Assembly: GCF_019753765.1 (NCBI RefSeq)
Contig: NZ_JAIJZW010000006.1
Location: forward strand, 124,001 to 188,000
Origin: Microbacterium marinilacus
GTDB taxonomy: Bacteria; Actinomycetota; Actinomycetes; Actinomycetales; Microbacteriaceae
Length of the DNA: 64,000 nucleotides
Direction: 5' to 3'
Shown: in pieces, positions 33,296 to 46,021 of the stretch
Numbering within the stretch: position 1 is the stretch's first letter
Layout of the letters: every line of letters starts with the position of its first letter
Position numbers and translations under genes: made by a program
The notes under the pieces: model-generated
Databases searched by the model: none
The model's input: the letters and a program-made list of their open reading frames with translations, nothing else
Told to the model about the DNA's origin: nothing

Positions 33296-33880
33296 TCAGG
33301 CGTGCGCGCGCGAGTGCTCGCCGAGGCGGTGCCACGTGCGGTCGACGTAGACCAGGCCCTGGCGGTCGGTGTCCGCGGCGTCGCTCGACTCGAGCGCCTG
33401 CCCGACGATGAGCGTCGAGGTGCCGGTCGGGAAGCGGTTCACCACGCGGCAGCGCAGCCATCGCGTGCCGTGGAATGTCGGCTCGCCCGTCTCCAGCGGT
33501 GCCCAGATCGACGTGTCGGCGAAGCGGTCGATGCCGCTCGTCGCGCCGAGCTTCGCCAGCTCCAGGTCCTCCGACCCCAGCAGGTGCACCACGACCGTGT
33601 CGGCCTCGCGCAGCACGGGCGCGCTGGACGACAGGTCGGACACCGAGAAGACGACGAGGGGCGGCTCGGCGCTGATCGACGCCAGCGAGGTCGCGGTCAG
33701 CGCGACGGGCCCGGCGTCGCCGACGGCCGTGATGAGCGAGACGCCGCCGGGGTGGTGGCGGAAGAACGCCTTGAAGTCGTCGGCGGGCAGCCCGGCGTCG
33801 AACGCCGCCTGGCTGGAGGCGGCGGACGAGAGGGGGCGGGGCGGCGCGTCCTGAGTGGCCTGTGCGCGTGCGATGCTCAT
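33296..33880 (-). CDS. Flavin reductase domain protein (HpaC-like)
   Basis: 194 residues from the ATG complementary to 33878-33880. The split-barrel flavin-binding core shows FRHHPGGVSLITAV, ALTATSLASISAEPPLVVFSV and FADTSIWAPLETGEPTFHGTRWLRCRV, typical of short-chain flavin reductases in two-component monooxygenases. The gene diverges from the shikimate cluster and no oxygenase partner is adjacent. GGAGAG lies upstream of the start on the minus strand. Confidence 0.88.
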   Translation of the reverse strand: MSIARAQATQDAPPRPLSSAASSQAAFDAGLPADDFKAFFRHHPGGVSLITAVGDAGPVALTATSLASISAEPPLVVFSVSDLSSSAPVLREADTVVVHLLGSEDLELAKLGATSGIDRFADTSIWAPLETGEPTFHGTRWLRCRVVNRFPTGTSTLIVGQALESSDAADTDRQGLVYVDRTWHRLGEHSRAHA

Positions 33881-33998
33881 GTGCTGCTCTCCTTCGTTCC
33901 TGTCACCGAGCGTCGCGCCCGGCGCCGGGTCGCGGCAAGCGTGGCGACACATGCCGCAACATCGCGGCGGGCGCCGCCGGTGCCCCACGGGCCTGTCG

Positions 33999-34028
33999 CG
34001 CCGAATGTACCTCTTGGTACATTCGGCG
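33999..34028. promoter_or_regulatory. 13-bp perfect inverted repeat operator at the qsuB start
   Basis: CGCCGAATGTACC-TCTT-GGTACATTCGGCG ends one base before the qsuB ATG. The ATGTAC/GTACAT core resembles the ATGTAA-N11-TTACAT site before the TRAP genes, so one regulator could bind both. Bound protein would block transcription or initiation of translation. Confidence 0.65.
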
Positions 34029-34029
34029 C

Positions 34030-35814
34030 ATGCGTACTTCCATCGCCACCGTCTGCCTGTCGGGCGGCCTCGTCGAGAAGCTCCACGCCTGTGCCGCGGC
34101 CGGGTTCGACGGAGTCGAGATCATGGACGCCGACCTGGTCGGCGCCTACGAGTCGCCCGAGGAGATCCGGGAGCTCTGCCGCAGGCTCGGCCTGACGGTG
34201 GAGATGTTCCAGCCCTTCCGCGACGTCGAGGGCGTCGACGACGCGACGTTCGCGCAGAGCCTCCGGCGCGCCGAGGCCAAGTTCGAGGTCATGGAACGGG
34301 TCGGCGCCGACCTCCTGCTGGTGTGCAGCAACGTCGCGACGGCCACCGTCGACGACGACGCGGTCGCCGCGGCGCAGCTCGGGGCGCTCGCGGACGCGGC
34401 GGCAGCGCACGGCATCCGGATCGCGTACGAGGCGTTGGCCTGGGGTCGCTACGTCGACGACTACCGCCGCGCCTGGCGGATCGTCGAGCAGGCCGATCGG
34501 CCCAATCTCGGCGTATGCCTCGACAGCTTCCACATCCTGTCGCGGGGGCACGACCCGTCCGGCATCGAGGAGATACCCGGCGACCGGATCTTCTTCCTCC
34601 AGCTCGCCGACGCGCCGGAGCTCGACATGGACCTCCTCTCGTGGAGCCGCCACCACCGCCTCTTCCCGGGGGAGGGGGCGTTCGACCTCACCGGGTTCCT
34701 GTCCCACGTGCTGCGGGCCGGGTACGCGGGCCCCCTCTCCCTCGAGGTCTTCAACGACACGTTCCGGCAGACGGACGTGACCCGGACGGCGGCGCACGCG
34801 CGTCGGTCGCTGACCTGGCTGGCCGATCGCACCGCGCACGCCCGGGGCTGGGACGACGGGCGCCTCGGCGACGCCCAGGAGGCGCGTCGCATCGACTTCG
34901 TCGAGGTGGGCGGGGCGGACCTGCGAGAGCTCGACGAGCTCCTCGACCAGCTGGGGTTCTCGTTCCGCGGCCGCCACCGCAGCAAGGCGGTCCGGCTCTG
35001 GGCCGCCGGAGACGCGCGCGTGATCCTGAACGAGGAGGTGCGCGATGCGACCCCCGTGCTCACCGCGTTCGGCCTCGGCGTGGACGACGCGCGCGCCGCC
35101 GCCGACCGCGCGGCGGCGCTGGGCGCGCCCAAGGTCTTCCGGCGCACGTACGCCGGCGAGCGGGAGCTGCCGGCGGTCGCGGCGCCGGATGGCACGCAGG
35201 TGTACTGGGACGACGTCGCCGCCGCCGCGTCGTGGGCGGGGGAGTTCGAGGGCGGCGGGCCCGCGGCACCGCTCGTCGCGTCGGTGGACCACATCAACGT
35301 CGCGTACGCGTGGCAGGACTTCGACGAGGCCGTGCTCTTCATGTCGAGCGTCGCCGCGCTGCACACGGACTCGACGGCCGAGGTGCCCGGGCCCCACGGG
35401 CTGGTGCGCAGCCAGGTGATGCGCTCTCTCGACGGGGTCGTCCGGGTGCCGATGAACCTGGCGCCGCCGACCGCCCCGCTGCCGACGCGGCACGTGGCGT
35501 TCCGCGTCGACGACGTGGTGGCCGTGGCGCGCGCGGCGCGCGCACGAGGCCTGCGCTTCCTGCCTGTGCCGGGCAACTACTACGACGACCTCGCCGCGCG
35601 GTTCGATCCCGACCCCGGGTGGCTCGAGACGCTCCGCGGGCTCGACCTTCTCTACGATCGCGACGAGGCGGGCGAGTTCGTGCACTTCTACACGCACACG
35701 TTCGGGGGCGTCTTCCTCGAGGTCGTCGAGCGTCGCGCGGGGTACGAGGGGTACGGCGCCGCCAACGCGCCGGTCCGCCTGTCGGCGCAGAGGGAGCTCG
35801 ACCGCCGCGGATGA
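34030..35814 (+). CDS. qsuB: 3-dehydroshikimate dehydratase, QsuB type (TIM barrel plus HPPD-like domain)
   Basis: 594 residues. The N-terminal sugar-phosphate isomerase-like barrel (about 1-275) begins MRTSIATVCLSG and includes YEALAWGRYVDDY, CLDSFHILSRG, QLADAPELDMDLLSWSRHHRLFPGEG and SLEVFNDTFR, the metal-site glutamates, aspartates and histidines of QsuB of Corynebacterium glutamicum. The C-terminal half (about 295-590) is hydroxyphenylpyruvate-dioxygenase-like, with VDHINVAYAWQDFDEAVLFM and a terminal HFYTHTFGGVFLEVVERR. The enzyme turns 3-dehydroshikimate into protocatechuate. The operator at the ATG leaves no ribosome-binding site, so the message may be leaderless. Confidence 0.93.
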   Translation: MRTSIATVCLSGGLVEKLHACAAAGFDGVEIMDADLVGAYESPEEIRELCRRLGLTVEMFQPFRDVEGVDDATFAQSLRRAEAKFEVMERVGADLLLVCSNVATATVDDDAVAAAQLGALADAAAAHGIRIAYEALAWGRYVDDYRRAWRIVEQADRPNLGVCLDSFHILSRGHDPSGIEEIPGDRIFFLQLADAPELDMDLLSWSRHHRLFPGEGAFDLTGFLSHVLRAGYAGPLSLEVFNDTFRQTDVTRTAAHARRSLTWLADRTAHARGWDDGRLGDAQEARRIDFVEVGGADLRELDELLDQLGFSFRGRHRSKAVRLWAAGDARVILNEEVRDATPVLTAFGLGVDDARAAADRAAALGAPKVFRRTYAGERELPAVAAPDGTQVYWDDVAAAASWAGEFEGGGPAAPLVASVDHINVAYAWQDFDEAVLFMSSVAALHTDSTAEVPGPHGLVRSQVMRSLDGVVRVPMNLAPPTAPLPTRHVAFRVDDVVAVARAARARGLRFLPVPGNYYDDLAARFDPDPGWLETLRGLDLLYDRDEAGEFVHFYTHTFGGVFLEVVERRAGYEGYGAANAPVRLSAQRELDRRG

Positions 35815-35854
35815 CGCGGCCGGACGGCGCTGTGGAGCAGGGCTTGCGCGCTTA

Positions 35855-35877
35855 ATGTAATAACCAGTACGTTACAT
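35855..35877. promoter_or_regulatory. Operator candidate upstream of the TRAP genes
   Basis: ATGTAA-N11-TTACAT lies about 45 bases before the TRAP small permease start. The inner TAACCAGTACGTTA resembles TetR-type sites, and a TetR gene ends the cluster. It is AT-rich against its surroundings and probably overlaps the promoter. Confidence 0.6.
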
Positions 35878-35922
35878 ACCGCGGCGACGACGACGTGGCC
35901 GATGAGCGGACGAGGGAGTCTG

Positions 35923-36480
35923 GTGAGCGACAGCGACGCAGCACGCGCAGGGCGCGGCGGATGGCGGAGATTCGTCACCGTCATCACGGGCATAGAGATC
36001 GGGATCGGCGTGGTCGCCCTCGTGGTGATCCTCGGGGCGGTCTTCCTCCAGGCGGTTCAGCGATACCTGCCCGTCGAGAGCGCGGCGTGGACGGGGGAGA
36101 TCGCCCGGTTCGCCCTCATCTGGCTCACCTTCGCGACGATGGGCGTGCTCGTCACCACGCGCGGCCACATCGCCCTCGAGATCGTCGACTCCATCCCTCG
36201 ACGGCAGGTCGTGCGGTGGGTGCAGGTGTTCGCCCTCGTCGTCGTCGCGGCGACCGGCGCCGGGCTGGTGTACGAGGCCGTCGCGCTGCTGCAGAGCCAG
36301 CAGATCGTCAAGTCCCCCGTGCTGCGGATGCCGATGTCGCTCGTCTACGTGCCGGTGCTCGTGGGGGTCGTCAGCACGACGGTCCGCTCGACCGTCGCGG
36401 CCGTGCTGATCGCCCGGAACGGCCCGCTGATGCCGGACTACGACAACGACGCGGACGCTGCGGGGGTGACGGCAGCATGA
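35923..36480 (+). CDS. TRAP transporter small permease (DctQ type)
   Basis: 185 residues, four membrane segments. LPVESAAWTGEIARFALIWLTFATMGVLVTTRGHIALEIV is the DctQ signature with its conserved W-E-R pattern. The GTG at 35923 has GAGGGAG upstream at good spacing; an in-frame ATG at 35902 lacks one. With the large permease and the solute receptor it forms a Na+-driven tripartite transporter. Its stop overlaps the large permease ATG. The gene order suggests the substrate is shikimate or quinate. Confidence 0.88.
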   Translation: MSDSDAARAGRGGWRRFVTVITGIEIGIGVVALVVILGAVFLQAVQRYLPVESAAWTGEIARFALIWLTFATMGVLVTTRGHIALEIVDSIPRRQVVRWVQVFALVVVAATGAGLVYEAVALLQSQQIVKSPVLRMPMSLVYVPVLVGVVSTTVRSTVAAVLIARNGPLMPDYDNDADAAGVTAA

Positions 36481-37751
36481 TGCTCGCGCTCCTCGGCCTG
36501 GCGATCGCCGTCCTGCTCGTCCTGCGTGTCCCGGTGGCCTTCGCGTTCCTCGGTCCTTCCCTCGCGTACATGGCCGTGAACGGGCGGTCGCCCGGCAGCG
36601 CGCTGCGCGAGGTCGCCAACGCGGCGGACAGCTTCCCCCTGCTCGCCGTGCCGCTGTTCATCTTCGTCGGCGCGCTCGCGAACCACGCCGGGATCGCCGA
36701 TCGGCTCTTCCGGTTCGCGATGGCCGCGCTCGCCGGCGTCCGCGGCAACCTCGGGTACGTCGCGGTCGGCGTGAGCGTCGGGTTCTCCTGGATGAGCGGC
36801 TCCGCCGTCGCCGACGCGGCCGCGACCGGCAAGGTGTCGATCACCGCCATGCTCCGCAACGGCTACAGCCGCCGCTTCGCCACCGGCGTGGTGGCGTCGT
36901 CCTCTCTCATCGCTCCGGTGATGCCCCCGAGCATCCCCGCCGTGATCTACGCCGGCCTCGCCGCGGTGTCCACCGGCGCGCTGTTCGCGGCGTCGGTGGT
37001 GCCGGCTCTCCTCATGGCGCTCGGGCTGTGCATCGTCGTCTTCTTCCTGGTGCGCAGGCAGCCGAACCTCACCCGGGGCAGACTCGACCGCCGCGAGCTG
37101 CTCGATTCCTTGAAGCAGGTCGTGTTCCCGCTGTTCGCCCCGGTGGTCATCCTCGGCGGCATCCTCGGCGGGATCTTCACGCCGACGGAGGCGGCCGCCG
37201 TGGGCGTGGTCTACATGCTGCTGCTCGGGCTCGGCCAGCGGTCGCTGTCCTGGGCGGGACTGCTGGCGGCCGTGAAGGAGACGGCGCTCACCACGGCCAG
37301 CATCATGCTCATCGTCGCCAGCGCCTCCCTGCTGGGGTACATCCTCGCCCGCGAGCGGCTGCCGCAGATGCTCACCGAGGCGCTGTTCTCGTTCACCGAC
37401 AGCCCCACCGTGTTCCTGATCGTGTGCGTGCTGCTCTGCCTCGTGCTCGGCACGGTGATCGACGCCACCGCCATCCTCGTGCTGGTCGTGCCCATCCTCA
37501 TGCCGATCGCGCTGCAGTTCGGCGTCGACCCCATCGCGCTGGGCGTGACGCTGATCATCTCCCTGATGATCGGGCTGCTGACACCACCCGTCGGCACGGT
37601 GCTGTTCGTGATCGCCGCCGTCTCGAAGACCCGCATCGGCGAGGTGTTCCGCGGGTGCCTGCCGTTCCTCATCCCGTCGGTCGTCATCGTGATCCTCACG
37701 ATCGCGTTCCCGGACGCGGTCCTCGCGATCCCGCGAGCGCTGGGGCTGTGA
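36477..37751 (+). CDS. TRAP transporter large permease (DctM type)
   Basis: 424 residues, about twelve membrane segments. SFPLLAVPLFIFVGALANHAGIADRLFRFA, GNLGYVAVGVSVGFSWMSGSAVADAAATGKVSI and LIAPVMPPSIPAVIYAGLA are DctM family regions, and FTPTEAAAVGVVYMLLLG is the conserved cytosolic-gate stretch. The ATG overlaps the DctQ stop (ATGA), and its final TGA shares a base with the shikimate dehydrogenase start. It carries the transport path. Confidence 0.94.
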   Translation: MMLALLGLAIAVLLVLRVPVAFAFLGPSLAYMAVNGRSPGSALREVANAADSFPLLAVPLFIFVGALANHAGIADRLFRFAMAALAGVRGNLGYVAVGVSVGFSWMSGSAVADAAATGKVSITAMLRNGYSRRFATGVVASSSLIAPVMPPSIPAVIYAGLAAVSTGALFAASVVPALLMALGLCIVVFFLVRRQPNLTRGRLDRRELLDSLKQVVFPLFAPVVILGGILGGIFTPTEAAAVGVVYMLLLGLGQRSLSWAGLLAAVKETALTTASIMLIVASASLLGYILARERLPQMLTEALFSFTDSPTVFLIVCVLLCLVLGTVIDATAILVLVVPILMPIALQFGVDPIALGVTLIISLMIGLLTPPVGTVLFVIAAVSKTRIGEVFRGCLPFLIPSVVIVILTIAFPDAVLAIPRALGL

Positions 37752-38719
37752 TGCCGGACATCGCGAGCGGGTCGCGGGGTCGTGCGACCCTGATCGGCCT
37801 GATCGGGCGGGGGATCGCGCCGTCGCTGTCGCCGGCGATGCACGAGCGCGAGGGCGCTCGCCACGGCATGCCCTACGTCTACCGCACCATCGAGATCGGG
37901 CAGCGCGAGGCGACGGCGGATCGGCTCGGCGAGCTGCTCGCGTCGACGCGTCGGCTCGGGTTCGACGGGCTGAACATCACGCATCCGGTCAAGCAGCTGG
38001 TCGTGCCCCTGCTCGACGAGCTCGCGCCGAGCGCTGCGCTCGTCGGAGCGGTCAACACGATCGTGTTCGAGGGGCGCCGCACGATCGGGCACAACACCGA
38101 CGTCACCGGATTCGGCGCCGCGTTCGACGAGACCTTCGGCACCGGGGCGCACGGCCGTGTCGTGCTCGTCGGAGCCGGCGGCGCGGGAGCGGCGGTCGCG
38201 ACGGCCCTCGCGGGGCGGCCGATCGCGGAGCTCGTCATCGTCGACGCCGACCCCGGGCGGGCCGAGCAGCTCGCGAACGAGATCGCGACGGACGTGTGGG
38301 ACAGCGTGCGCGCCATCGAGCCGGCCGCGTTGCCCGACGCGTTGGCCGAGGCGGCCGGCGTCGTCAACGCGACGCCGTACGGCATGGCCGACCACCCCGG
38401 CACGGCCTTCGACCCCGCGCTGCTCACCGACCGGATGTGGGTGGCCGACATCGTCTACCGGCCCGCCGAGACCGCGCTGCTCGTCGCAGCGCGCGAGCGG
38501 GGCTGCCGCGTCATGTCCGGGCTGCGGATGGCGATGGGGCAGGCGGCTGACGCATTCGAGATCTTCACCGGCGAGCCCGCCGATCGGCGGGCGATGCTGG
38601 CCGACCTTGAGGAACTGGTCGCCGCGGAGGCCGCGGCGACACCCTCCCCGGCGAGTCCGGGGGACCGCCACGGCGACGATGCCGCGGCGGATACCACTGA
38701 TGAGAGGAAGAAGCGATGA
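37751..38719 (+). CDS. qsuD: Quinate/shikimate dehydrogenase (AroE/QsuD family)
   Basis: 322 residues. SLSPAMHE holds the substrate-binding serines, GLNITHPVKQ the catalytic lysine, and HNTDVTGF the catalytic aspartate. The Rossmann loop is VGAGGAGAAVA, and the second strand ends VIVDADPGR: an acidic residue replaces the NADP-binding arginine motif, pointing to NAD+ and so to catabolism. An extra C-terminal tail of about 30 residues is rich in Ala, Pro and Asp. It would oxidise shikimate to 3-dehydroshikimate for QsuB. Confidence 0.92.
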   Translation: MPDIASGSRGRATLIGLIGRGIAPSLSPAMHEREGARHGMPYVYRTIEIGQREATADRLGELLASTRRLGFDGLNITHPVKQLVVPLLDELAPSAALVGAVNTIVFEGRRTIGHNTDVTGFGAAFDETFGTGAHGRVVLVGAGGAGAAVATALAGRPIAELVIVDADPGRAEQLANEIATDVWDSVRAIEPAALPDALAEAAGVVNATPYGMADHPGTAFDPALLTDRMWVADIVYRPAETALLVAARERGCRVMSGLRMAMGQAADAFEIFTGEPADRRAMLADLEELVAAEAAATPSPASPGDRHGDDAAADTTDERKKR

Positions 38720-39741
38720 AGGCACGACGAGGCGGACCCGTCGCATGGGTCGCGGCGGCAGCGGTGCCGGCGATGATGCTGACCGGCTGCGCGAACGGCG
38801 ACGGCGGCTCGGGCGGCACGGGCTCCGGCGGCGAGATCGAGCTCACGCTCGCCCACAGCTACAACGAGAGCCAGCCGCAGCACCGCTGCGGCGCGCAGGT
38901 GATCGCCGACGAGGTCGAGGCGGCGGACGTCGGCCTCTCCGTCGAGATCTTCCCGTCGAGCCAGCTCGGCGGGGACGCGGACAGGATCTCCGCCGTCGCC
39001 TCCGGCGACATCGATCTCGACATCCAGGGCGCCTCGGCGCTCGGAGCGGTGTACGAGCCCATCAGCGTGCTCGACGCGGCCTACGTGTTCGACGACGCCG
39101 ACCACCTCGCCGCCTTCATGGCGAGCGACGAGTCGCGCACCGTGATCGACGGGTTCGCCGAGTCGGCCGGGGTGCAGACGCTCGGCGCGTGGTCGGCCGG
39201 CGCGCGCCACTTCACCGCCAACGAGCCGATCAGGGAGCCCGACGACCTGCAGGGCCTGCGGATCCGCTTCCCCGGCTCGCCGCAGTTCCTGCTGAACGCC
39301 CAGGCTCTCGGTGCCTCCGCGACCGAGGTGGCGTACGAGGAGCTCTACCTGGCGCTGCAGCAGGGCACCGTGGACGGGCAGGAGAACCCGATCACGAACA
39401 TCGAGGCGCAGAACCTCGCCGAGGTGCAGGACTACCTCAGCCTGACCGCCCACCAGCTGAACACGAACCTCGTGATCGCCGGCCCTGTGTGGAACGACCT
39501 CTCGGACGAGCAGCAGGCCGCGCTGACGGCGGCCGTGGAGTCCGCTGTCGCCCAGGTCACCGAGTGCGTGACCGAGGACGAGGAGGCGACGATCGAGGAG
39601 TGGCGCGCCGGCGGGGACTGGGAGGTCGTCGACGACGTCGACATCGACGCGTTCCGTGAGGCCGCGCTGGCGTACCTGGAAGGCGCGTACACCGACGACT
39701 CGCTCGCGGTGTTCGAGGCGATCCGCGCGACGGCCGGCTGA
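38716..39741 (+). CDS. TRAP transporter solute-binding lipoprotein (DctP type)
   Basis: 341 residues with lipobox MLTGC, so membrane-tethered outside. ELTLAHSYNESQPQHRCG starts the mature fold. LRIRFPGSPQFLLNAQALGASATEVAYEELYLALQQGTVDGQENPITNI is the DctP core; the LRIR arginine normally clamps the substrate carboxylate. The ATG overlaps the shikimate dehydrogenase end by four bases. It likely binds shikimate or a related cyclic acid, judging by the operon. Confidence 0.93.
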   Translation: MKARRGGPVAWVAAAAVPAMMLTGCANGDGGSGGTGSGGEIELTLAHSYNESQPQHRCGAQVIADEVEAADVGLSVEIFPSSQLGGDADRISAVASGDIDLDIQGASALGAVYEPISVLDAAYVFDDADHLAAFMASDESRTVIDGFAESAGVQTLGAWSAGARHFTANEPIREPDDLQGLRIRFPGSPQFLLNAQALGASATEVAYEELYLALQQGTVDGQENPITNIEAQNLAEVQDYLSLTAHQLNTNLVIAGPVWNDLSDEQQAALTAAVESAVAQVTECVTEDEEATIEEWRAGGDWEVVDDVDIDAFREAALAYLEGAYTDDSLAVFEAIRATAG

Positions 39742-39746
39742 CCGGG

Positions 39747-40748
39747 GTGGCGCGCCCTCCCGTCGGCGCGGCGCGCGCCGTGCCGACGTTCACCGGCGAC
39801 GTGCCGGGCGGTGAGCTCGGCACGACGCTGATCCACGAGCACGTGTTCGTCGGGCACCCCGAGCTCGACCTCAACTTCCCTCACCCGGAGTGGGACGAGG
39901 AGGAGGCGGTCGAGCGGGCCGTGGCAGGGCTCGAGCGGCTGCACGGCCTCGGCGTGCGCACCGTGGTCGACCTGACGGTGCCCGGCCTCGGCCGGGACGT
40001 CGGGCGGGTGCGCCGCGTCGCCGAGCGCAGCCCCGTGCGCCTGGTGGCCTCGACCGGCTACTACACCGCCGACGCCCTGCCGCAGTTCTTCGTCACCCAC
40101 CGCCCGGGCGGACTCGTCGGAGGCGACGACCCGCTGGTCGAGTTCTTCCTGCGCGACATCCAGGAGGGGATCGCCGGCACCGGCGTGCGCGCCGGGATGC
40201 TCAAGGTGTTCTCGGACGCGCGCGGCATCACGCCGGACGCGCGTCGCGTGTTCGAGGCCGCCGCGGTCGCGCACGCCGAGACCGGCGTGCCGATCACGAC
40301 CCACTCCGACGCGTCGGTGCGCGGCGGCGCGGATCAGCAGCGCCTGCTGTCCGAGCTCGGCGTGCCCGCAGACCGGATCGTGATCGGCCACGCCGGCGAC
40401 TCGTCCGACCTCGACCACCTGTCGGCGCTCGCGGACGAGGGCTCCTACCTCGGCTTCGATCGCTTCGGCATGGCGCATGTCGGCTCGGACGAGCAGCGGA
40501 TCGCCACCCTCCTGTCGATGCTCGATCGGGGCTATGCCGACAGCATCCTGCTGTCGCACGACGCCGCGTTCTTCAGCCGGATCACGCCGCCGTCCTGGAG
40601 GGCCGCTTCGGCCCCCGAGTGGGAGATGACCCACCTGCACACGCGCGTCCTGCCGGGGCTGCGCGCCCGAGGGGTCGACGATGCGACGATCGACACGCTC
40701 ATGATCGACAACCCGAGACGGGTGCTCGCGGGTGAGAGGATCGGATGA
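39747..40748 (+). CDS. Phosphotriesterase-like metal hydrolase (PTE family)
   Basis: 333 residues, amidohydrolase-superfamily barrel. The binuclear metal ligands are visible: HEH at the first strand (TTLIHEHVF), the probable carboxylated lysine in GMLKVFSDA, histidines in TTHSDAS and VIGHAGD, and the aspartate in LLSHDAAF. It starts five bases after the solute receptor and overlaps the TetR start. Family members act as lactonases or esterases. A role in opening a shikimate- or quinate-derived lactone or ester is conceivable but not shown. Confidence 0.87.
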   Translation: MARPPVGAARAVPTFTGDVPGGELGTTLIHEHVFVGHPELDLNFPHPEWDEEEAVERAVAGLERLHGLGVRTVVDLTVPGLGRDVGRVRRVAERSPVRLVASTGYYTADALPQFFVTHRPGGLVGGDDPLVEFFLRDIQEGIAGTGVRAGMLKVFSDARGITPDARRVFEAAAVAHAETGVPITTHSDASVRGGADQQRLLSELGVPADRIVIGHAGDSSDLDHLSALADEGSYLGFDRFGMAHVGSDEQRIATLLSMLDRGYADSILLSHDAAFFSRITPPSWRAASAPEWEMTHLHTRVLPGLRARGVDDATIDTLMIDNPRRVLAGERIG

Positions 40749-41443
40749 GCCGACAGTCGGATGAGCCGGCAGAGGGTGGAGATGTGACGGACGCGGCAGC
40801 GGCGCGACGGGACACGTCGCGCCAGCGGGACCCGGAGCGGACGCGAGCGGAGCTGCTCGCGGTCGCGACCGAGGTGTTCGCCGAGCACGGCTACTCCGGC
40901 GCGCGCGTGGACGAGATCGCCGACCGCACCCGCACCACCAAGCGGATGATCTACTACTACTTCGGCGGCAAGGAACAGCTCTATCTCGCCGTCCTCGAGC
41001 AGGCCTATCGCGGCATCCGCGAGGCCGAGAAGGTCATCCACGTCGGAGACCTCGACCCGGCGGAGGCGATCCGGCGGCTCGCCGAGCTCACCTACGACCA
41101 TCACGTGCGCCACAGCGACTTCATCCGGCTGGTGATGATCGAGAACGTGCACCGCGGCGTCTTCATCCGGCAGATCGAGGCGATCCGCGAGCTCGGCCAG
41201 CCGGCCGTCGGACTGCTCGACGAGATCCTCGCCCAGGGGCGTGCGGACGGCGTCTTCCGTTCCGACGTCGACGCGCTGGACGTGCACATGCTGATCAGCT
41301 CGTATTGCGTCTTCCAGGTGGCGAACCAGTACACGTTCGGCTACCTCTTCGACCGCGACCTGCACTCGCCGGCGCTGAGCGGGCATCTGCGCGCGATGAT
41401 CGGCGACGTCGTGGTCTCGTGGCTGACGGCGCCGGCGGCCTGA
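40745..41443 (+). CDS. TetR/AcrR-family regulator of the shikimate cluster
   Basis: 232 residues. A charged N-terminal arm precedes the helix-turn-helix: AEHGYSGARVDEIADRTRTTKRMIYYYFGGKEQLY. The C-terminal ligand domain resembles the TetR_C type with YDHHVRHSDFIRLVMIENVHRG. Being the last gene of the cluster, overlapping the PTE stop (ATGA), it is the best candidate to bind the palindromes at 33999 and 35855. Confidence 0.88.
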   Translation: MSRQSDEPAEGGDVTDAAAARRDTSRQRDPERTRAELLAVATEVFAEHGYSGARVDEIADRTRTTKRMIYYYFGGKEQLYLAVLEQAYRGIREAEKVIHVGDLDPAEAIRRLAELTYDHHVRHSDFIRLVMIENVHRGVFIRQIEAIRELGQPAVGLLDEILAQGRADGVFRSDVDALDVHMLISSYCVFQVANQYTFGYLFDRDLHSPALSGHLRAMIGDVVVSWLTAPAA

Positions 41444-41472: not shown

Positions 41473-42342
41473 GTGACAGAGGCGCAGCATGCCCTCGACC
41501 TGCTGGTCGCGGGCATCGAGGAGGAGCGGCTCGGCGCGCACGGCGCCCACGTCCGCATCGGTGACGAGACGGCGCAGCATCGCTGGGTGGCCGATGTGCG
41601 GGAGGACATCCACTCGGTGTCGAAGGGGGTATGCGTCCTCGCGGCGGGCATCGCCGCGGACGAGGGTCTGTTCGACGTCGATGCACCGGTCGCCCGGTAC
41701 CTGCCGGACCTCGTGCGGGGTGCGGGGGCCGGCGACGTGACGGTGCGGCGTCTTCTCACCATGACGAGCGGCATCGACCTGCCGTGGTCGCCGACGATGT
41801 TCGACGACTGGCCCGACCTCGCCCGCGAGTTCCTGCGGCGTCCCTCGCGCGGGCACGTGTTCCAGTACTCCAACGCGAGCACCTACACCGCGATGCGTGC
41901 GCTGGACGCCGTCGTCGGCGACGTGCGCGACTGGCTGGTGCCGCGCCTGTTCGATCCTCTCGGCATCGACGACCCGACGTGGGAGCGGTGTCCCCGGGGC
42001 TGGATCGTCGCGGGCGGCGGGCTCGCGCTGCGCACCGAGGAGCTCGCTCGGATCGGGCGTCTCGTCCGCGACCGGGGCGAGTGGGAGGGGCGACGCCTGG
42101 TCTCGGCCTCCTGGATCGACGGCATGCACTCCGACTGGGTCGTGGCGGGCGCGAGCCCGGGATACGACCGGTACGCGCTGGCGGGATGGGGCGGCCCCGG
42201 CGACGGCTGGCGGCTGCACGGCGCGTACGGGCAGCTGCTCGTGTTCGCGGGCGACGCGGTGGTGACGATCACGGCCGACGAGCTGCACGGCGGCGACCGC
42301 CTGGCACAGCTCGCCTACGACGCGGTCGCGGGCGGGGCCTGA
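41473..42342 (+). CDS. Serine hydrolase, beta-lactamase/6-aminohexanoate-hydrolase-like
   Basis: 289 residues, cytosolic (no signal peptide). SVSK at 48-51 supplies the nucleophile and general base, YSN at 132-134 the second motif, and HGAYGQ the third, so unlike the lipoprotein at 26.4 kb this one is intact. LLTMTSGIDLPWSP fits the esterase EstB/NylB-like branch. The GTG start has no ribosome-binding site. It converges with tatB. Substrate unknown. Confidence 0.87.
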   Translation: MTEAQHALDLLVAGIEEERLGAHGAHVRIGDETAQHRWVADVREDIHSVSKGVCVLAAGIAADEGLFDVDAPVARYLPDLVRGAGAGDVTVRRLLTMTSGIDLPWSPTMFDDWPDLAREFLRRPSRGHVFQYSNASTYTAMRALDAVVGDVRDWLVPRLFDPLGIDDPTWERCPRGWIVAGGGLALRTEELARIGRLVRDRGEWEGRRLVSASWIDGMHSDWVVAGASPGYDRYALAGWGGPGDGWRLHGAYGQLLVFAGDAVVTITADELHGGDRLAQLAYDAVAGGA

Positions 42343-42357
42343 CCGACGTCGCCGGGG

Positions 42358-42861
42358 TCAGCTGCTGAGCGCGGCGTCCTGGGCCTGCGCGTCGGGCCCA
42401 GGAGTCGGGGAGGGCGTGGCCGGCGCCGCGGGAACGAGGATGCGCCGCGGGTGGGCCGACGTGCCGCCGATGATGTAGCGGGGCGCCGGCTCGGCGGCAG
42501 GCGGAGCGGGATCGGCCGACGGCGGAGCGGGATCGGACGGCGAGCCGGCCTCCGGCCGGCCTGGATCGGTCGCGTCGGCAGCGGACGCCGGCGGTACCGC
42601 TCCGCCGCGTTCCTGCGCGAGCGCCTCCTGGATGATGCGGCGCGGGTCGTACCGGCGGGGGTCGAGCTCGCGCCATTCCTCGGCGCTGAGCGGGAGACCG
42701 GCCTCCGACTCGGCGCGTGCCCGCGCCGTCTCGGTGAACGACCGGACGGCACGGGCGAACTCGCCGAGGCGCTGCGCGTAGGCGGGCAGGCGAGCCGGGC
42801 CGATGATCACCGCCGCGAGGATCGCGACGACGAACAGCTTTTCGACGGTGAGACCGAGCAT
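42358..42861 (-). CDS. tatB: Twin-arginine translocase subunit TatB
   Basis: 167 residues. One N-terminal membrane helix followed by GPARLPAYAQRLGEFARAVRSF gives the TatB glycine-proline hinge and amphipathic helix. A long proline/alanine-rich tail (from about residue 85) is typical of actinobacterial TatB. It lies eight bases after tatC, at the end of the Tat unit. Confidence 0.85.
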   Translation of the reverse strand: MLGLTVEKLFVVAILAAVIIGPARLPAYAQRLGEFARAVRSFTETARARAESEAGLPLSAEEWRELDPRRYDPRRIIQEALAQERGGAVPPASAADATDPGRPEAGSPSDPAPPSADPAPPAAEPAPRYIIGGTSAHPRRILVPAAPATPSPTPGPDAQAQDAALSS

Positions 42862-42869
42862 GGCTCTCC

Positions 42870-43628
42870 TCAGGTTCGGGCGAGGGCGCGGGCGGCGGCG
42901 CGATCGTGGAGGTGGGCGATGAGCAGGGCGGTGAGGAACAGGGCCGTCATCGGGACGGCGATGAGGACCATCGACAGCACGTCGGCGGCCGGCGTCGCCA
43001 TGGCGCTGAACAGCACGATGCCGACGACGCTGAAGCGCCAGGTCCGGGCGATCGTGCGCGCCGGCAGCACGCCGAGGAAGTTCAGGGCCACGAGGAAGAC
43101 GGGGAGGACGAAGGCGATGCCGGTGGCGAGCACGATCTTCAGCACGAAGTCGACGTAGTACGAGGCCTGCAGCAGGGTGCTGTCCTCTTCGGACGCGAAG
43201 CCGGCGAGCAGCTCGACCATGTGCGGGAACATCGTGAAGCCGACCGCGCAGCCGGCCGCGAAGAGCGGCAGAGCCGCTGCGAGGAAGCCGAAGGTGTAGC
43301 GCCTCTCGCGTCGCGTGAGGCCGGGGACGAGGAACGCGAACAGCTGGTACAGCCATACGGGGCTCGAGACGACGACGCCCGCGAAGAGCGCGATCTTCAT
43401 CCGCAGGTCGAACGCCCCGGTGACGCTGTCGTAGTTGAGGCTCGCGTCGCGCGACTCCGCGAGCGTCGTGATCGGCGTGCGCAGCACGTCGAGGATCGGG
43501 TCGGCGAGCAGGAAGCCCGCCACCACCCCGACGATCAGGGCCACCGCCGCGCGCGTCGCGCGCTTGCGGGCCTCCGTGAGATGCGCGCCGAGCGGCATCG
43601 TCGACGGCGCGGCGGTGGCGGTGGTCAT
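42870..43628 (-). CDS. tatC: Twin-arginine translocase subunit TatC
   Basis: 252 residues, six membrane segments. PLGAHLTEARKRATRAAVALIVGVVAGFLL and SSPVWLYQLFAFLVPGLTRRERRYTFGF are the signal-peptide-receptor regions; FVLPVFLVALNFLGVLPARTIARTWRFSVVGIVLFSAMATPAADVLSM completes the family. Normal TatC starts often read HLxELR, whereas here it is HLTEAR. The start overlaps the tatA stop. Confidence 0.93.
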   Translation of the reverse strand: MTTATAAPSTMPLGAHLTEARKRATRAAVALIVGVVAGFLLADPILDVLRTPITTLAESRDASLNYDSVTGAFDLRMKIALFAGVVVSSPVWLYQLFAFLVPGLTRRERRYTFGFLAAALPLFAAGCAVGFTMFPHMVELLAGFASEEDSTLLQASYYVDFVLKIVLATGIAFVLPVFLVALNFLGVLPARTIARTWRFSVVGIVLFSAMATPAADVLSMVLIAVPMTALFLTALLIAHLHDRAAARALART

Positions 43629-43870
43629 GGCGTCGCCCGCTGCGGCGCGCCGTCGGCGGCGACGCGGACCGCGGTGGTCTCGGGGGCCGCCACGGCGGGA
43701 GCCGCGGCCGGGGCCTGCTCGTCGGACGAGGCTGGCGCGACCTCGTCCTTCAGGATCCGCATCGACTGCCCGAGGCTCTTCGCGAGCGCGGGGAGCTTGG
43801 CGGCGCCGAAGATCAGCACGACGATGGCGAGGATGATCAGGGCGTGCCAGCCCGTGAGGTTCTGCAGCAT
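43625..43870 (-). CDS. tatA: Twin-arginine translocase subunit TatA
   Basis: 81 residues from the ATG complementary to 43868-43870. One membrane helix, the FGAAKLPALAKSLGQSMRILKDEV hinge and amphipathic helix, and an alanine-rich tail are all TatA features. GGAGAG precedes the start on the minus strand. It lies 49 bases downstream of the dioxygenase gene and overlaps tatC by four bases. Confidence 0.92.
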   Translation of the reverse strand: MLQNLTGWHALIILAIVVLIFGAAKLPALAKSLGQSMRILKDEVAPASSDEQAPAAAPAVAAPETTAVRVAADGAPQRATP

Positions 43871-43919
43871 GGTTCTCTCCTTGATGCTCTGCCGGCCGTC
43901 GGCCGGGCGGTGGTGGGGG

Positions 43920-44939
43920 TCAGTTCGTCGGCGGCTCGGGGGCGTCGCCGCCACCGCCTGCTCCGCCGCCGGGCGCCGCGCCCGCGGTGGGCTCGGTCGT
44001 GGTGTCGACGCGGACGACCAACGAGGCGGTGTAGCCCGAGGTGACGTCGCCGCTCATGGTGGCGATCTGGAGCTCGCCGCCGTCGTCGCCGAAGACGTTG
44101 TCGCTCGCGAGCGTGAGCTGCGACATGTTCTGCGTGGAGCCGTCGTACTCGGACAGTGCGTAGACCTCGGCGCAGGTCTCCTCGGTCAGGGCGAGCTGCG
44201 AGGTGGAGATCGCGTTGGTCGAGTCGGTGATCGAGTCGACGTCGGGGTACACCTCGAAGTGGATGTGGGGCCAGCGGCCGGTGTAGCAGGCGGGGAAGAT
44301 CGAGGTGAAGGTGACCACGCCGTTCGCATCGGCCACCTGCACGCCGCGCAGGTAGGTCTCCTCGGTGACGCCGTCGGAGTACATCGAGTAGCGGCCCTGC
44401 GCGTCGCAGTGCCAGGCGTAGACCGCCACGTTCTCGAACGGCACGTCGCCGTTCGCCATGTCGAGGATCGTGAGCTCGAAGGTCAGCGGCACGCCCTCGG
44501 CGGTCGCCCCGCCGTCGATGCTCGATCGGATGTCGCTGCGGACGATGCCCGACTGCTCGAGGATGTCGGGCCCGTTGGAGCCGTCACCCGGGTAGGGGCC
44601 GGCCGTCTCGTCGGGGATCTCCGCCGCCGGCAGCTCGGTCGTCGTGGTCGACTCGCTCGCGCTCGGCGAGGGCGTCGTGGTGGTCGTCGTGCCGCTCGAT
44701 CCGTCGCTCGTCGACGAGTCGGAGGACGTCGTGGTGTCGGACGTCGTCGGTGCGCACGCGGCGAGCGCGGCGGTGCCGACGCCGAGGCCCACGAGGCTGA
44801 GGACGCCGCGGCGGCTGATCAGGGTGCGGATGTCGAACGAGGCGCCCTGGTCGACGACCTCTTCGTCCGCGCGGTCGAGGAGGCGGCCCTCGTAGGCGGG
44901 GCCCTGCGGTGTCTGGGTGGGCTCTGGGATGCGGCTCAT
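43920..44939 (-). CDS. Tat-exported intradiol-dioxygenase-like lipoprotein
   Basis: 339 residues. A 42-residue charged leader precedes the twin-arginine motif SRRGVLSLVGLG (Arg43-Arg44) and a lipobox-like LAAC (Cys62). A Thr/Ser-rich spacer follows to about residue 105, then a dioxygenase domain. Iron-ligand candidates are the tyrosine in WHCDAQGRYSMY and the CYTGRWPHIHFEVY cluster, which has Tyr, His and His as in catechol/protocatechuate dioxygenases. The Gly/Pro tail is low complexity. It heads the tatA-tatC-tatB unit, so export machinery and substrate are co-encoded. It diverges from the metal importer. Confidence 0.85.
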   Translation of the reverse strand: MSRIPEPTQTPQGPAYEGRLLDRADEEVVDQGASFDIRTLISRRGVLSLVGLGVGTAALAACAPTTSDTTTSSDSSTSDGSSGTTTTTTPSPSASESTTTTELPAAEIPDETAGPYPGDGSNGPDILEQSGIVRSDIRSSIDGGATAEGVPLTFELTILDMANGDVPFENVAVYAWHCDAQGRYSMYSDGVTEETYLRGVQVADANGVVTFTSIFPACYTGRWPHIHFEVYPDVDSITDSTNAISTSQLALTEETCAEVYALSEYDGSTQNMSQLTLASDNVFGDDGGELQIATMSGDVTSGYTASLVVRVDTTTEPTAGAAPGGGAGGGGDAPEPPTN

Positions 44940-45068
44940 GTCGGACTCCTGCGTGAGGTTCGGATGGGATGGATCCCAGTGTGGGTGGCGAGTCCTTCCC
45001 GGCTCTCTGCGCCGTCTATGCGTTTCCTATGCCGGCGGAAGAGGCGGGGTCGGGGTGGCGCGGGGTTG

Positions 45069-45110
45069 TTTTAGGTGAGCCGAAAATGTATTTTTTCGGC
45101 ATGCCTAAAA
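45069..45110. promoter_or_regulatory. Paired DtxR/MntR-like boxes over the importer start
   Basis: TTTTAGGTGAGCCGAAAA (45069-45086) and, inverted, TTTTAGGCATGCCGAAAA (complement of 45093-45110) differ only in the central three bases. The first contains the AGGTGAG ribosome-binding site and the first base of the ATG at 45086. Metal-bound repressor could block the importer; the pair can also fold as an mRNA hairpin. Confidence 0.7.
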
Positions 45111-46021
45111 AAGCCAGCGTCCTCGGGGTCGTCGCCGGTCTCGCCGTCATCGCGCCGCTGCTCGCCGCCTGCACCGGCGATCGCGCGCCCGCGGGCGACC
45201 GCCCCGTCGTCCTGACGACCTTCACGGTGCTGGCGGACATCGCCGAGAACGTCGCCGGAGACCACCTCGAGGTGCGGTCGATCACGAAGGCCGGAGCCGA
45301 GATCCACGGCTACGAGCCGACGCCGGGCGACATCGCGAAGGCCTCGGAGGCCGATCTGATCCTCGACAACGGGCTGAACCTCGAGCTGTGGTTCTCGCAG
45401 TTCGTCGAGTCCGTCGACGTCCCCCACGTCGTGGTGTCGGAGGGGGTGGACGTCCTGGACATCTCGGAGGACGCCTACGCGGGCACGCCGAACCCTCACG
45501 CCTGGATGAGCCCCGCGAGCGCCCAGCTCTACGTGGACAACATGGTCGAGGCGTTCAGCGATCTCGAGCCCGAGCACGCGGACGACTTCCGCGCCAACGG
45601 CGACGCCTACAAGGCGCAGCTGCAGGACATCCAGGACGAGCTCGTGGGCGAGCTCGCGGCACTGCCCGAGAACGAGCGGGCCCTGGTGACGTGCGAGGGC
45701 GCGTTCTCGTACCTCGCACGGGACGCGGGCCTGACGGAGGCCTACATCTGGCCCGTCAACGCGGAGCAGCAGGCGACGCCGCAGCAGATCGCTGCCACGA
45801 TCGAGTTCGTCCGGGACAACGACGTGCCGGCGGTGTTCTGCGAGTCCACGGTGTCGGATCGCCCCATGCAGCAGGTCGTGGAGGCGACGGGCGCGACCTT
45901 CGGCGGCACCCTGTACGTCGACTCGCTGTCGGAGGAGGGCGGCCCCGTGCCCACGTACCTCGACCTCCTCCGCCACGACGTCGACACGATCGTCGCCGCG
46001 CTCACCGGAGGCGACCGGTGA
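45086..46021 (+). CDS. mntA: Manganese/zinc ABC transporter substrate-binding lipoprotein (MntA/PsaA type)
   Basis: 311 residues, lipobox PLLAAC. Cluster A-I fold: EIHGYEPTPGDIAKASEADLILDNGLNLELWFSQF holds the first histidine, NPHAWMSPASAQLYVDNM the second, ALVTCEGAFSYLARDAGL the glutamate, and YVDSLSEEGGPVPTYLDLL the terminal aspartate. There is no His-rich loop, unlike ZnuA at 9.6 kb, which favours manganese. The ATG at 45086 has AGGTGAG at six bases; the ATG at 45101 does not. Two DtxR/MntR-like boxes overlap the start. Confidence 0.9.
   Translation: MYFFGMPKKASVLGVVAGLAVIAPLLAACTGDRAPAGDRPVVLTTFTVLADIAENVAGDHLEVRSITKAGAEIHGYEPTPGDIAKASEADLILDNGLNLELWFSQFVESVDVPHVVVSEGVDVLDISEDAYAGTPNPHAWMSPASAQLYVDNMVEAFSDLEPEHADDFRANGDAYKAQLQDIQDELVGELAALPENERALVTCEGAFSYLARDAGLTEAYIWPVNAEQQATPQQIAATIEFVRDNDVPAVFCESTVSDRPMQQVVEATGATFGGTLYVDSLSEEGGPVPTYLDLLRHDVDTIVAALTGGDR

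Follow-up and report, generated by a model that had tools for sequence, protein, structure and literature searches.

A Tat-signal lipoprotein dioxygenase and its linked Tat genes form a conserved, probably mobile cassette in actinobacteria

What does it mean when a set of twin-arginine translocation (Tat) genes stands directly beside the gene of one enzyme with a Tat signal, and does such a set serve that enzyme alone? To our knowledge, the reason why genomes carry second Tat systems has been little tested outside Bacillus. The question is raised here by Microbacterium marinilacus (assembly GCF_019753765.1), in a stretch of 64,000 nucleotides of contig NZ_JAIJZW010000006.1 (positions 124,001 to 188,000; this whole stretch is called the window, and coordinates are given within it), where the gene of a putative intradiol ring-cleavage dioxygenase is followed on the minus strand by tatA, tatC and a tatB-like gene. 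We read the four genes as one inherited cassette, in which a surface lipoprotein dioxygenase would be accompanied by a TatABC translocase of its own that is not strictly required for export, and we assign this reading a probability of roughly 0.72.

The dioxygenase gene (43920..44939, minus strand, 339 amino acids (aa)) matches PF00775 Dioxygenase_C at 38.8 bits (cut-off 27.3). On the same strand, tatA (43625..43870, 81 aa; PF02416 TatA_B_E 54.3 bits, cut-off 21) starts 49 bases after it, tatC (42870..43628, 252 aa) overlaps tatA by 4 bases (ATGA), and tatB (42358..42861, 167 aa) starts 8 bases after tatC; the coordinates, strand and gaps (49, -4 and 8 bases) given in a preliminary description of this DNA are borne out by the sequence. 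TatC scores above the cut-offs of PF00902 (196.4 bits, cut-off 25.1) and TIGR00945 (166.3 bits, cut-off 132.7), and TatA is just under those of the NCBIfam TatA models (63.6 of 72; 52.5 of 53.9). The mechanical open reading frames (ORFs) of tatA and tatB are longer (109 aa and 332 aa), and the starts used here are internal ATGs chosen by homology. The third tat gene is called TatB-like from its position in the cassette, from a GP motif that we take as a mark of TatB, and from weak NCBIfam matches, both below cut-off (NF002377 'sec-independent translocase', 47.5 bits, cut-off 96; TIGR01410, 29.7 bits, cut-off 56.5); a Pfam search returned no match for it. A TatB-like gene keeps this third place in full sets elsewhere, in each of the family, GTDB and order-wide samples described below. 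The layout makes co-transcription of the four genes plausible and nothing stronger, because a promoter and terminator scan of 42200-45200 found no site of any kind and is hence little informative on terminators.

The predicted signal peptide of the dioxygenase (residues 1-62; 44754..44939, minus strand) consists of a long n-region, the twin arginine R43-R44, a hydrophobic stretch and a lipobox LAAC (SRRGVLSL...LAAC). In an alignment of 29 orthologs, R43, R44 and the lipobox cysteine C62 are invariant, as are Y184, Y219, H225 and H227, which we take to be the four iron-ligand positions (two tyrosines and two histidines). The protein has the features of a Tat-exported lipoprotein, namely a twin arginine, an uncharged hydrophobic stretch and a lipobox cysteine, as judged from the sequence without a signal-peptide predictor. 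Microbacteriaceae have no outer membrane, and the lipoprotein would be attached to their only membrane, on its outer side.

As for the class of the enzyme, the catechol 1,2-dioxygenase equivalogs TIGR02439, TIGR02465 and TIGR02438 were not reached (27.5, 25.4 and 23.4 bits against cut-offs of 392, 359.25 and 404.4, respectively). The nearest solved structures by sequence and by fold are secreted intradiol dioxygenases, the spider-mite Tetur07g02040 (5vg2, 6bdj) and the Streptomyces SACTE_2871 (4ilt, 4ilv); the structure model was modest (mean predicted local distance difference test score 62.4) and was used for the fold search only. SACTE_2871 differs in being a dioxygenase/carbohydrate-binding fusion according to its PDB title, and the available parts of PMC9167512 mention no linked Tat genes for these secreted enzymes. 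Dioxygenases of this kind are described there as cleaving catechol, 4-methylcatechol and polycyclic plant catechols (PMC9167512, available parts). The putative dioxygenase of the window would thus be expected to cleave rings outside the cell.

In the main ortholog group, residues 11-42 of the n-region (PxGPAYEGRLLDRADEEVVDQG-type) have a mean top-residue frequency of 0.832, compared to 0.792 for residues 107-311 and 0.673 for the hydrophobic region, with 14 divergent, duplicate or truncated rows left out (L044, L174, L138, L026, L034-L038, L140 and L144-L147), an omission that raises the conservation of the n-region; the n-regions of L034-L038 are clearly different in the 29-ortholog alignment. 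The n-region is therefore better conserved than the mature, catalytic domain although lipoprotein processing should remove it, and it may be recognized by a partner in the cytosol or take part in a check of folding. Some dioxygenase frames depart from the usual form. At L278:1852-2803 the gene is broken into two ORFs beside intact tatA, tatC and tatB, by decay or by an assembly or sequencing error, and in L138 the start is out of frame with the remainder (seen by eye), by decay or a sequencing error. In a Herbiconiux metagenome-assembled genome (L085:6001-7329), the dioxygenase frame runs into tatA without a stop (442 aa), a fusion that the N-out topology of TatA would allow; the loss of a stop codon or an indel from sequencing is equally likely. 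A contig of 4.7 kb labelled Stenotrophomonas maltophilia (L143) carries a Microbacterium-like dioxygenase and is probably an assembly contaminant.

The window does not hold the only Tat set of this genome. Two PF00902 TatCs and two PF02416 TatAs score over cut-off in the assembly, which is 99.99% complete and has 3.89 Mb in 32 contigs, and the second tatA-tatC pair lies on contig 27 between a helicase and a PafC-like gene (both named by eye). Most of the family genomes compared have one tatC locus flanked in this way, and tatC loci of this type are called housekeeping here. A second TatB-like gene (46% identity) is found on contig 1. The search for a second tatA/tatC set that the preliminary description had proposed was therefore positive, and a single Tat set is ruled out.

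The linkage of dioxygenase and tat genes recurs among relatives. In a sample of 150 genomes of the family, a dioxygenase match at E≤0.001 was found in 43, and a close ortholog (best E ≤5.8e-47) was counted in 32. When 30 family loci were compared with flanks of about 1.5 kb, the full order dioxygenase-tatA-tatC-tatB was present in 9, tatA and tatB without tatC (AB) in 2, tatA only (A) in 1, and no tat gene in 18. A scan of GTDB genomes, some of them common to the family sample, gave at least 561 dioxygenase relatives; among the best 80, which were kept, 21 loci have the full order, 3 are AB (L085 counted here), 4 are A, and in 1 the contig ends after tatA, and the remaining 51 have no tat gene downstream (3 of these have <700 bases there). 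Full sets occur in Microbacterium, Herbiconiux, Homoserinibacter, Frigoribacterium, Subtercola and another Microbacteriaceae bacterium, as well as in Brevibacterium, Corynebacterium, Demequina and Arthrobacter, a host range of at least five actinobacterial families, and the surroundings outside the cassette differ between loci.

The same linkage is seen when loci are picked by their TatC. When the TatCs of the 22 family genomes with at least two tatC are ranked by their match to the window TatC, the top eight (62-72% identity) all adjoin a dioxygenase, and none of the next matches fetched (≤58% identity to the window TatC) lies beside one. Of the TatCs in 396 genomes drawn from across the order, 11 reach at least 65% identity to the window TatC, counting that TatC itself; the 10 others, from two other families, have a dioxygenase directly upstream and tatB downstream in 10/10 cases (one dioxygenase is split). 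As a control, four weaker matches (53-58%) had no dioxygenase, and three of the four had housekeeping flanks. The association recurs across genera and families, its absence from all relatives being ruled out, and the recurring gene order, the single TatC clade described below and the loci picked by TatC rule out chance neighbours.

In an IQ-TREE tree of 106 TatCs, all 28 dioxygenase-linked TatCs lie on one side of a single branch (98/98), together with none of the 78 others. This branch is present in 98% of 200 bootstrap trees (the bootstrap being not fully settled), and shuffled labels need 25.1 changes on average. The cassette TatCs of Corynebacterium, Brevibacterium, Demequina and Arthrobacter fall inside the clade and the other TatCs of those genera elsewhere, which suggests a single origin and horizontal spread of the cassette. 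Carriage on plasmids was considered and rejected; the plasmids searched gave 7 distant matches of <60% identity, none covering 80% of the query.

Loci that hold only part of the set are informative about how it changes. The dioxygenase tree is weakly resolved (26/100 branches starred), and tat-linked and tat-free forms are interspersed in it; L044 and L174 (duplicates, other start choices) were left out, and L072, L097, L100 and L133 are labelled cut. Given a single TatC origin and interspersed tat-free orthologs, repeated loss of tat genes would be easier to explain than repeated gain. The 10 TatAs from partial or cut loci group with 31 cassette TatAs, apart from 28 others (FastTree support 0.943, no misplaced row), most of which come from housekeeping-flanked loci, and four partial-set TatBs are closer to cassette TatBs than to the one housekeeping TatB compared. 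The ratio of nonsynonymous to synonymous substitution rates (dN/dS) of linked tatC is 0.20-0.35 in six pairs, which indicates purifying selection; in sets without tatC, it is 0, 0.29 and 0.54 for tatA (three pairs) and 0.47 for tatB (one pair). In the GTDB sample, each of the three AB genomes has just one tatC, which lies apart from its dioxygenase, and of the four A genomes two have a single tatC elsewhere and two have two tatC elsewhere. Because of the cassette-type grouping and these dN/dS values, the linked TatA or TatB appear to be kept where the sole tatC lies elsewhere (three AB and two A genomes). In Microbacterium sp. Leaf151 (L193) and VKM Ac-2923 (L201), a second tatC outside the cassette clade lies away from a dioxygenase locus that keeps tatA only.

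Is the linked Tat then dedicated to the dioxygenase? A strict pair, in which this Tat exports the dioxygenase only and the enzyme needs that Tat, would agree with the tight link, conserved among relatives, between a single TatC clade and a single family of substrates, and with the precedent of PhoD-TatAdCd in Bacillus (PMC3827258, available parts), and we nevertheless consider it unlikely. Orthologs that stand apart from the only tatC of their genome have retained the same Tat signal. A search for residues separating 27 linked from 51 unlinked dioxygenases found no alignment column that differs in frequency by >45 points, and linked-specific residues were rejected; cassette TatC has only two clade-specific positions (≥85% in the clade, ≤15% elsewhere). 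For these two reasons, the proteins give no sign of a private recognition code. Further, 20 of the 21 genomes with a full cassette in the GTDB sample have at least two tatC, and in the exception, Arthrobacter agilis UMCV2, the cassette tatC is the sole tatC found (38/38 genomes of the genus searched, UMCV2 included, have at least one match). In this strain the cassette Tat would then have to export further substrates, unless a second tatC is hidden in a masked stretch. Directly after the UMCV2 cassette (L134, L238) comes a gene that looks by eye like a resolvase. The dedicated export module of the preliminary description thus holds as a linked and conserved module, and its strict dedication is not supported. 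Since many lineages lack a linked tatC or any linked tat gene, the linked Tat would not be strictly required, and in our reading what the cassette adds is capacity for export and independence of the host rather than an exclusive pairing.

The converse possibility, that the linked Tat is a general second translocase beside which the dioxygenase has been retained by chance, with the gene order reflecting shared descent only, seems to us less probable still. It would account for a cassette TatC that looks like a normal TatC, for the case of UMCV2 and for the many dioxygenases without linked Tat; it would not account for a linkage that persists in at least five families with differing surroundings, for tatA or tatA and tatB remaining beside the dioxygenase where tatC is absent, or for a clade that includes 0/78 TatCs without a linked dioxygenase.

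Several points weigh against the reading of the four genes as an inherited cassette of enzyme and translocase. Most orthologs lack a linked tatC, and those with no linked tat gene at all make up 18/30 of the family loci and 51/80 of the GTDB loci. Of 18 members of the same genus among the matches listed, only the genome of the window has the cassette TatC type, and several hosts are metagenome bins (e.g. L091, L127, L139), in which misbinning is possible. With the dioxygenase tree so weakly resolved, repeated loss of tat genes as against repeated gain is a probable reading, and the order of loss a putative one. The TatB scores are under curated cut-offs, and the dioxygenase frames of L278 (split) and L138 (start out of frame) show either decay or sequencing errors. 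Taken together with the evidence above, we read the locus as a horizontally spread cassette of a substrate and a translocase that do not form a strictly exclusive pair.

The preliminary description had further placed the dioxygenase next to a shikimate-to-protocatechuate cluster. A cluster for shikimate uptake and conversion does lie on the plus strand at 33862-41443, with a 3-dehydroshikimate-dehydratase-like gene (AP_endonuc_2 and HPPD-type domains), tripartite ATP-independent periplasmic (TRAP) transporter genes, a shikimate dehydrogenase, a phosphotriesterase-like gene and a TetR regulator. That the dioxygenase is the ring-cleavage step of these genes, as the dehydratase-like gene, TRAP transporter and shikimate dehydrogenase at 33862-39741 might suggest, is highly improbable, the cluster being on the opposite strand with other genes between, none of its genes being found at E≤1e-15 in the dioxygenase loci of 80 relatives (flanks up to 6 kb each side), and two adjacent PF00775 genes, PcaH/PcaG-like by Pfam, adjacency and look, being located on contig 23. 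For the latter two reasons a link of the dioxygenase to the protocatechuate route is unlikely; the functional tie was rejected, and what stands is the presence of the cluster.

Upstream of the dioxygenase, three CATAG-type half-sites with 11-bp spacing (CATAGGAAACGCATAGACGGCGCAGAG; 45005..45031, minus strand) form a candidate operator. The mismatch-free site occurs once in the 3.89-Mb genome, and at least 12/15 letters are matched in 68/101 ortholog upstream regions compared to 0.12% of shuffles, a figure that is descriptive, because these rows, which are related to one another, are also those in which the motif was spotted by eye (L044, L174 and L138 were dropped). By locus type, it is present in 20/26 full sets, 3/4 AB, 4/6 A and 41/65 loci without tat genes, and it is not present in the three Corynebacterium full sets or the Demequina full set; on these counts its occurrence follows the enzyme rather than the tat genes. 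Direct repeats of 11 bases are typical of OmpR/PhoB-type regulators. A two-component system was not a common neighbour; among 12 loci, a KdpDE-like pair (by eye) precedes the dioxygenase only in L069. A DtxR-type box as the operator of the dioxygenase was rejected, since no site reached 14/19 letters of the consensus used. Between the divergent dioxygenase and metal ATP-binding cassette (ABC) transporter genes, an inverted DtxR/MntR-like sequence (by eye) is found at 45070-45110, where it overlaps the likely start of the substrate-binding protein. The full ORF of the metal-binding protein, used as query, gave no match at 1e-20 in the 80 loci of the GTDB sample; matches to the ABC-ATPase, at 32-38% identity, were present in 10/80 and were taken for unrelated ABC proteins.

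Accessory tat loci of other kinds were surveyed in an exploratory way at 44 tatC loci of family genomes with several tatC, a small sample examined with a crude signal finder, whose flags inside tatC and other membrane segments were discounted by eye. The count leaves out the accessory loci L189, L193, L201, L202 and L208 (from other samples), G009 (two tatC scored alike at the ends of one contig), the tatC fragments G054 and G124, and the second PF00902 match of G100. Half of the loci (22) have helicase/PafC-type flanks and 22 are accessory. Apart from matches inside tatC, no gene with a Tat signal was found within 2 kb of the 22 housekeeping loci. Such a neighbour was present within 2 kb in 14 accessory loci, namely 9 with the dioxygenase and L237, L216, L219, L220 and L257 (the last two are sister genomes), and eight accessory loci had no accepted one. 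By Pfam, the neighbours include Ferritin_2 (L216), a short-chain dehydrogenase (L219) and GH32 (L220), and in L237 a signal peptidase is encoded next to small proteins with Tat signals; the accessory tat genes of L189, L208 and L224 likewise have Ferritin_2 neighbours at a distance of no more than 2 kb. It is tempting to propose, with somewhat more doubt than belief, that accessory Tats of Actinomycetota are as a rule mobile cassettes of substrate and translocon, of which the dioxygenase kind is the commonest, and that these erode from the tatC end as the host Tat takes over, leaving linked TatA or TatB to work with the housekeeping TatC.

The closest precedent for the cassette is PhoD-TatAd-TatCd of Bacillus subtilis, in which a substrate gene likewise adjoins tat genes of its own while the genome carries another Tat system at a different place, and PhoD is secreted specifically by TatAdCd (PMC3827258, available parts). 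That system belongs to a Firmicute and has TatAC only and a phosphodiesterase as substrate, whereas the cassette has tatA, tatC and a tatB-like gene with a dioxygenase lipoprotein, occurs in several families of Actinomycetota, also in partial forms, and has a putative specificity. The mark of systems of this kind, a substrate gene beside its own tat genes across species, is found here, and we consider the cassette real and conserved, probably mobile, and a putative variant of the PhoD-TatAdCd kind. EfeB/YwbN near TatAy-TatCy in Bacilli is similar in that an iron-dependent exported enzyme is encoded near a tat locus, and differs in its enzyme family and in that TatAyCy also exports QcrA and YkuE (PMC3827258, available parts). 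Two tatC per genome have been listed for Corynebacterium variabile and Microbacterium testaceum (PMC3827258 Table 2; PMC3219685); in the available parts of these papers the second loci are not connected to a dioxygenase, and the main text of PMC3827258 does not contain the word 'dioxygenase'. A literature search, mostly without subscription papers, found no report of a dioxygenase-Tat cassette.

In the mechanism that we propose, the dioxygenase would fold and load its iron in the cytosol, its twin-arginine signal would be passed to the co-expressed TatB-TatC receptor, and TatA would complete transport. Lipoprotein processing at C62 would then tether the dioxygenase to the outer side of the membrane, and catechol-type compounds may be cleaved there ahead of their entry into the cell. 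The linked Tat would provide capacity for export that moves between actinobacteria along with the enzyme, and the housekeeping Tat may replace part or all of it.

These findings suggest that an export machine and the enzyme that it exports may be inherited, and transmitted, as a unit. A single TatC clade goes with a single family of substrates, and the sets found in nature range from ACB through AB and A to none; these allow a direct test of whether the linked Tat provides specificity or only capacity, and of whether substrate-linked TatA and TatB share a common TatC. The dioxygenase and its Tat would be a candidate pair for the export of folded iron enzymes, and they point to extracellular ring cleavage in actinobacteria.

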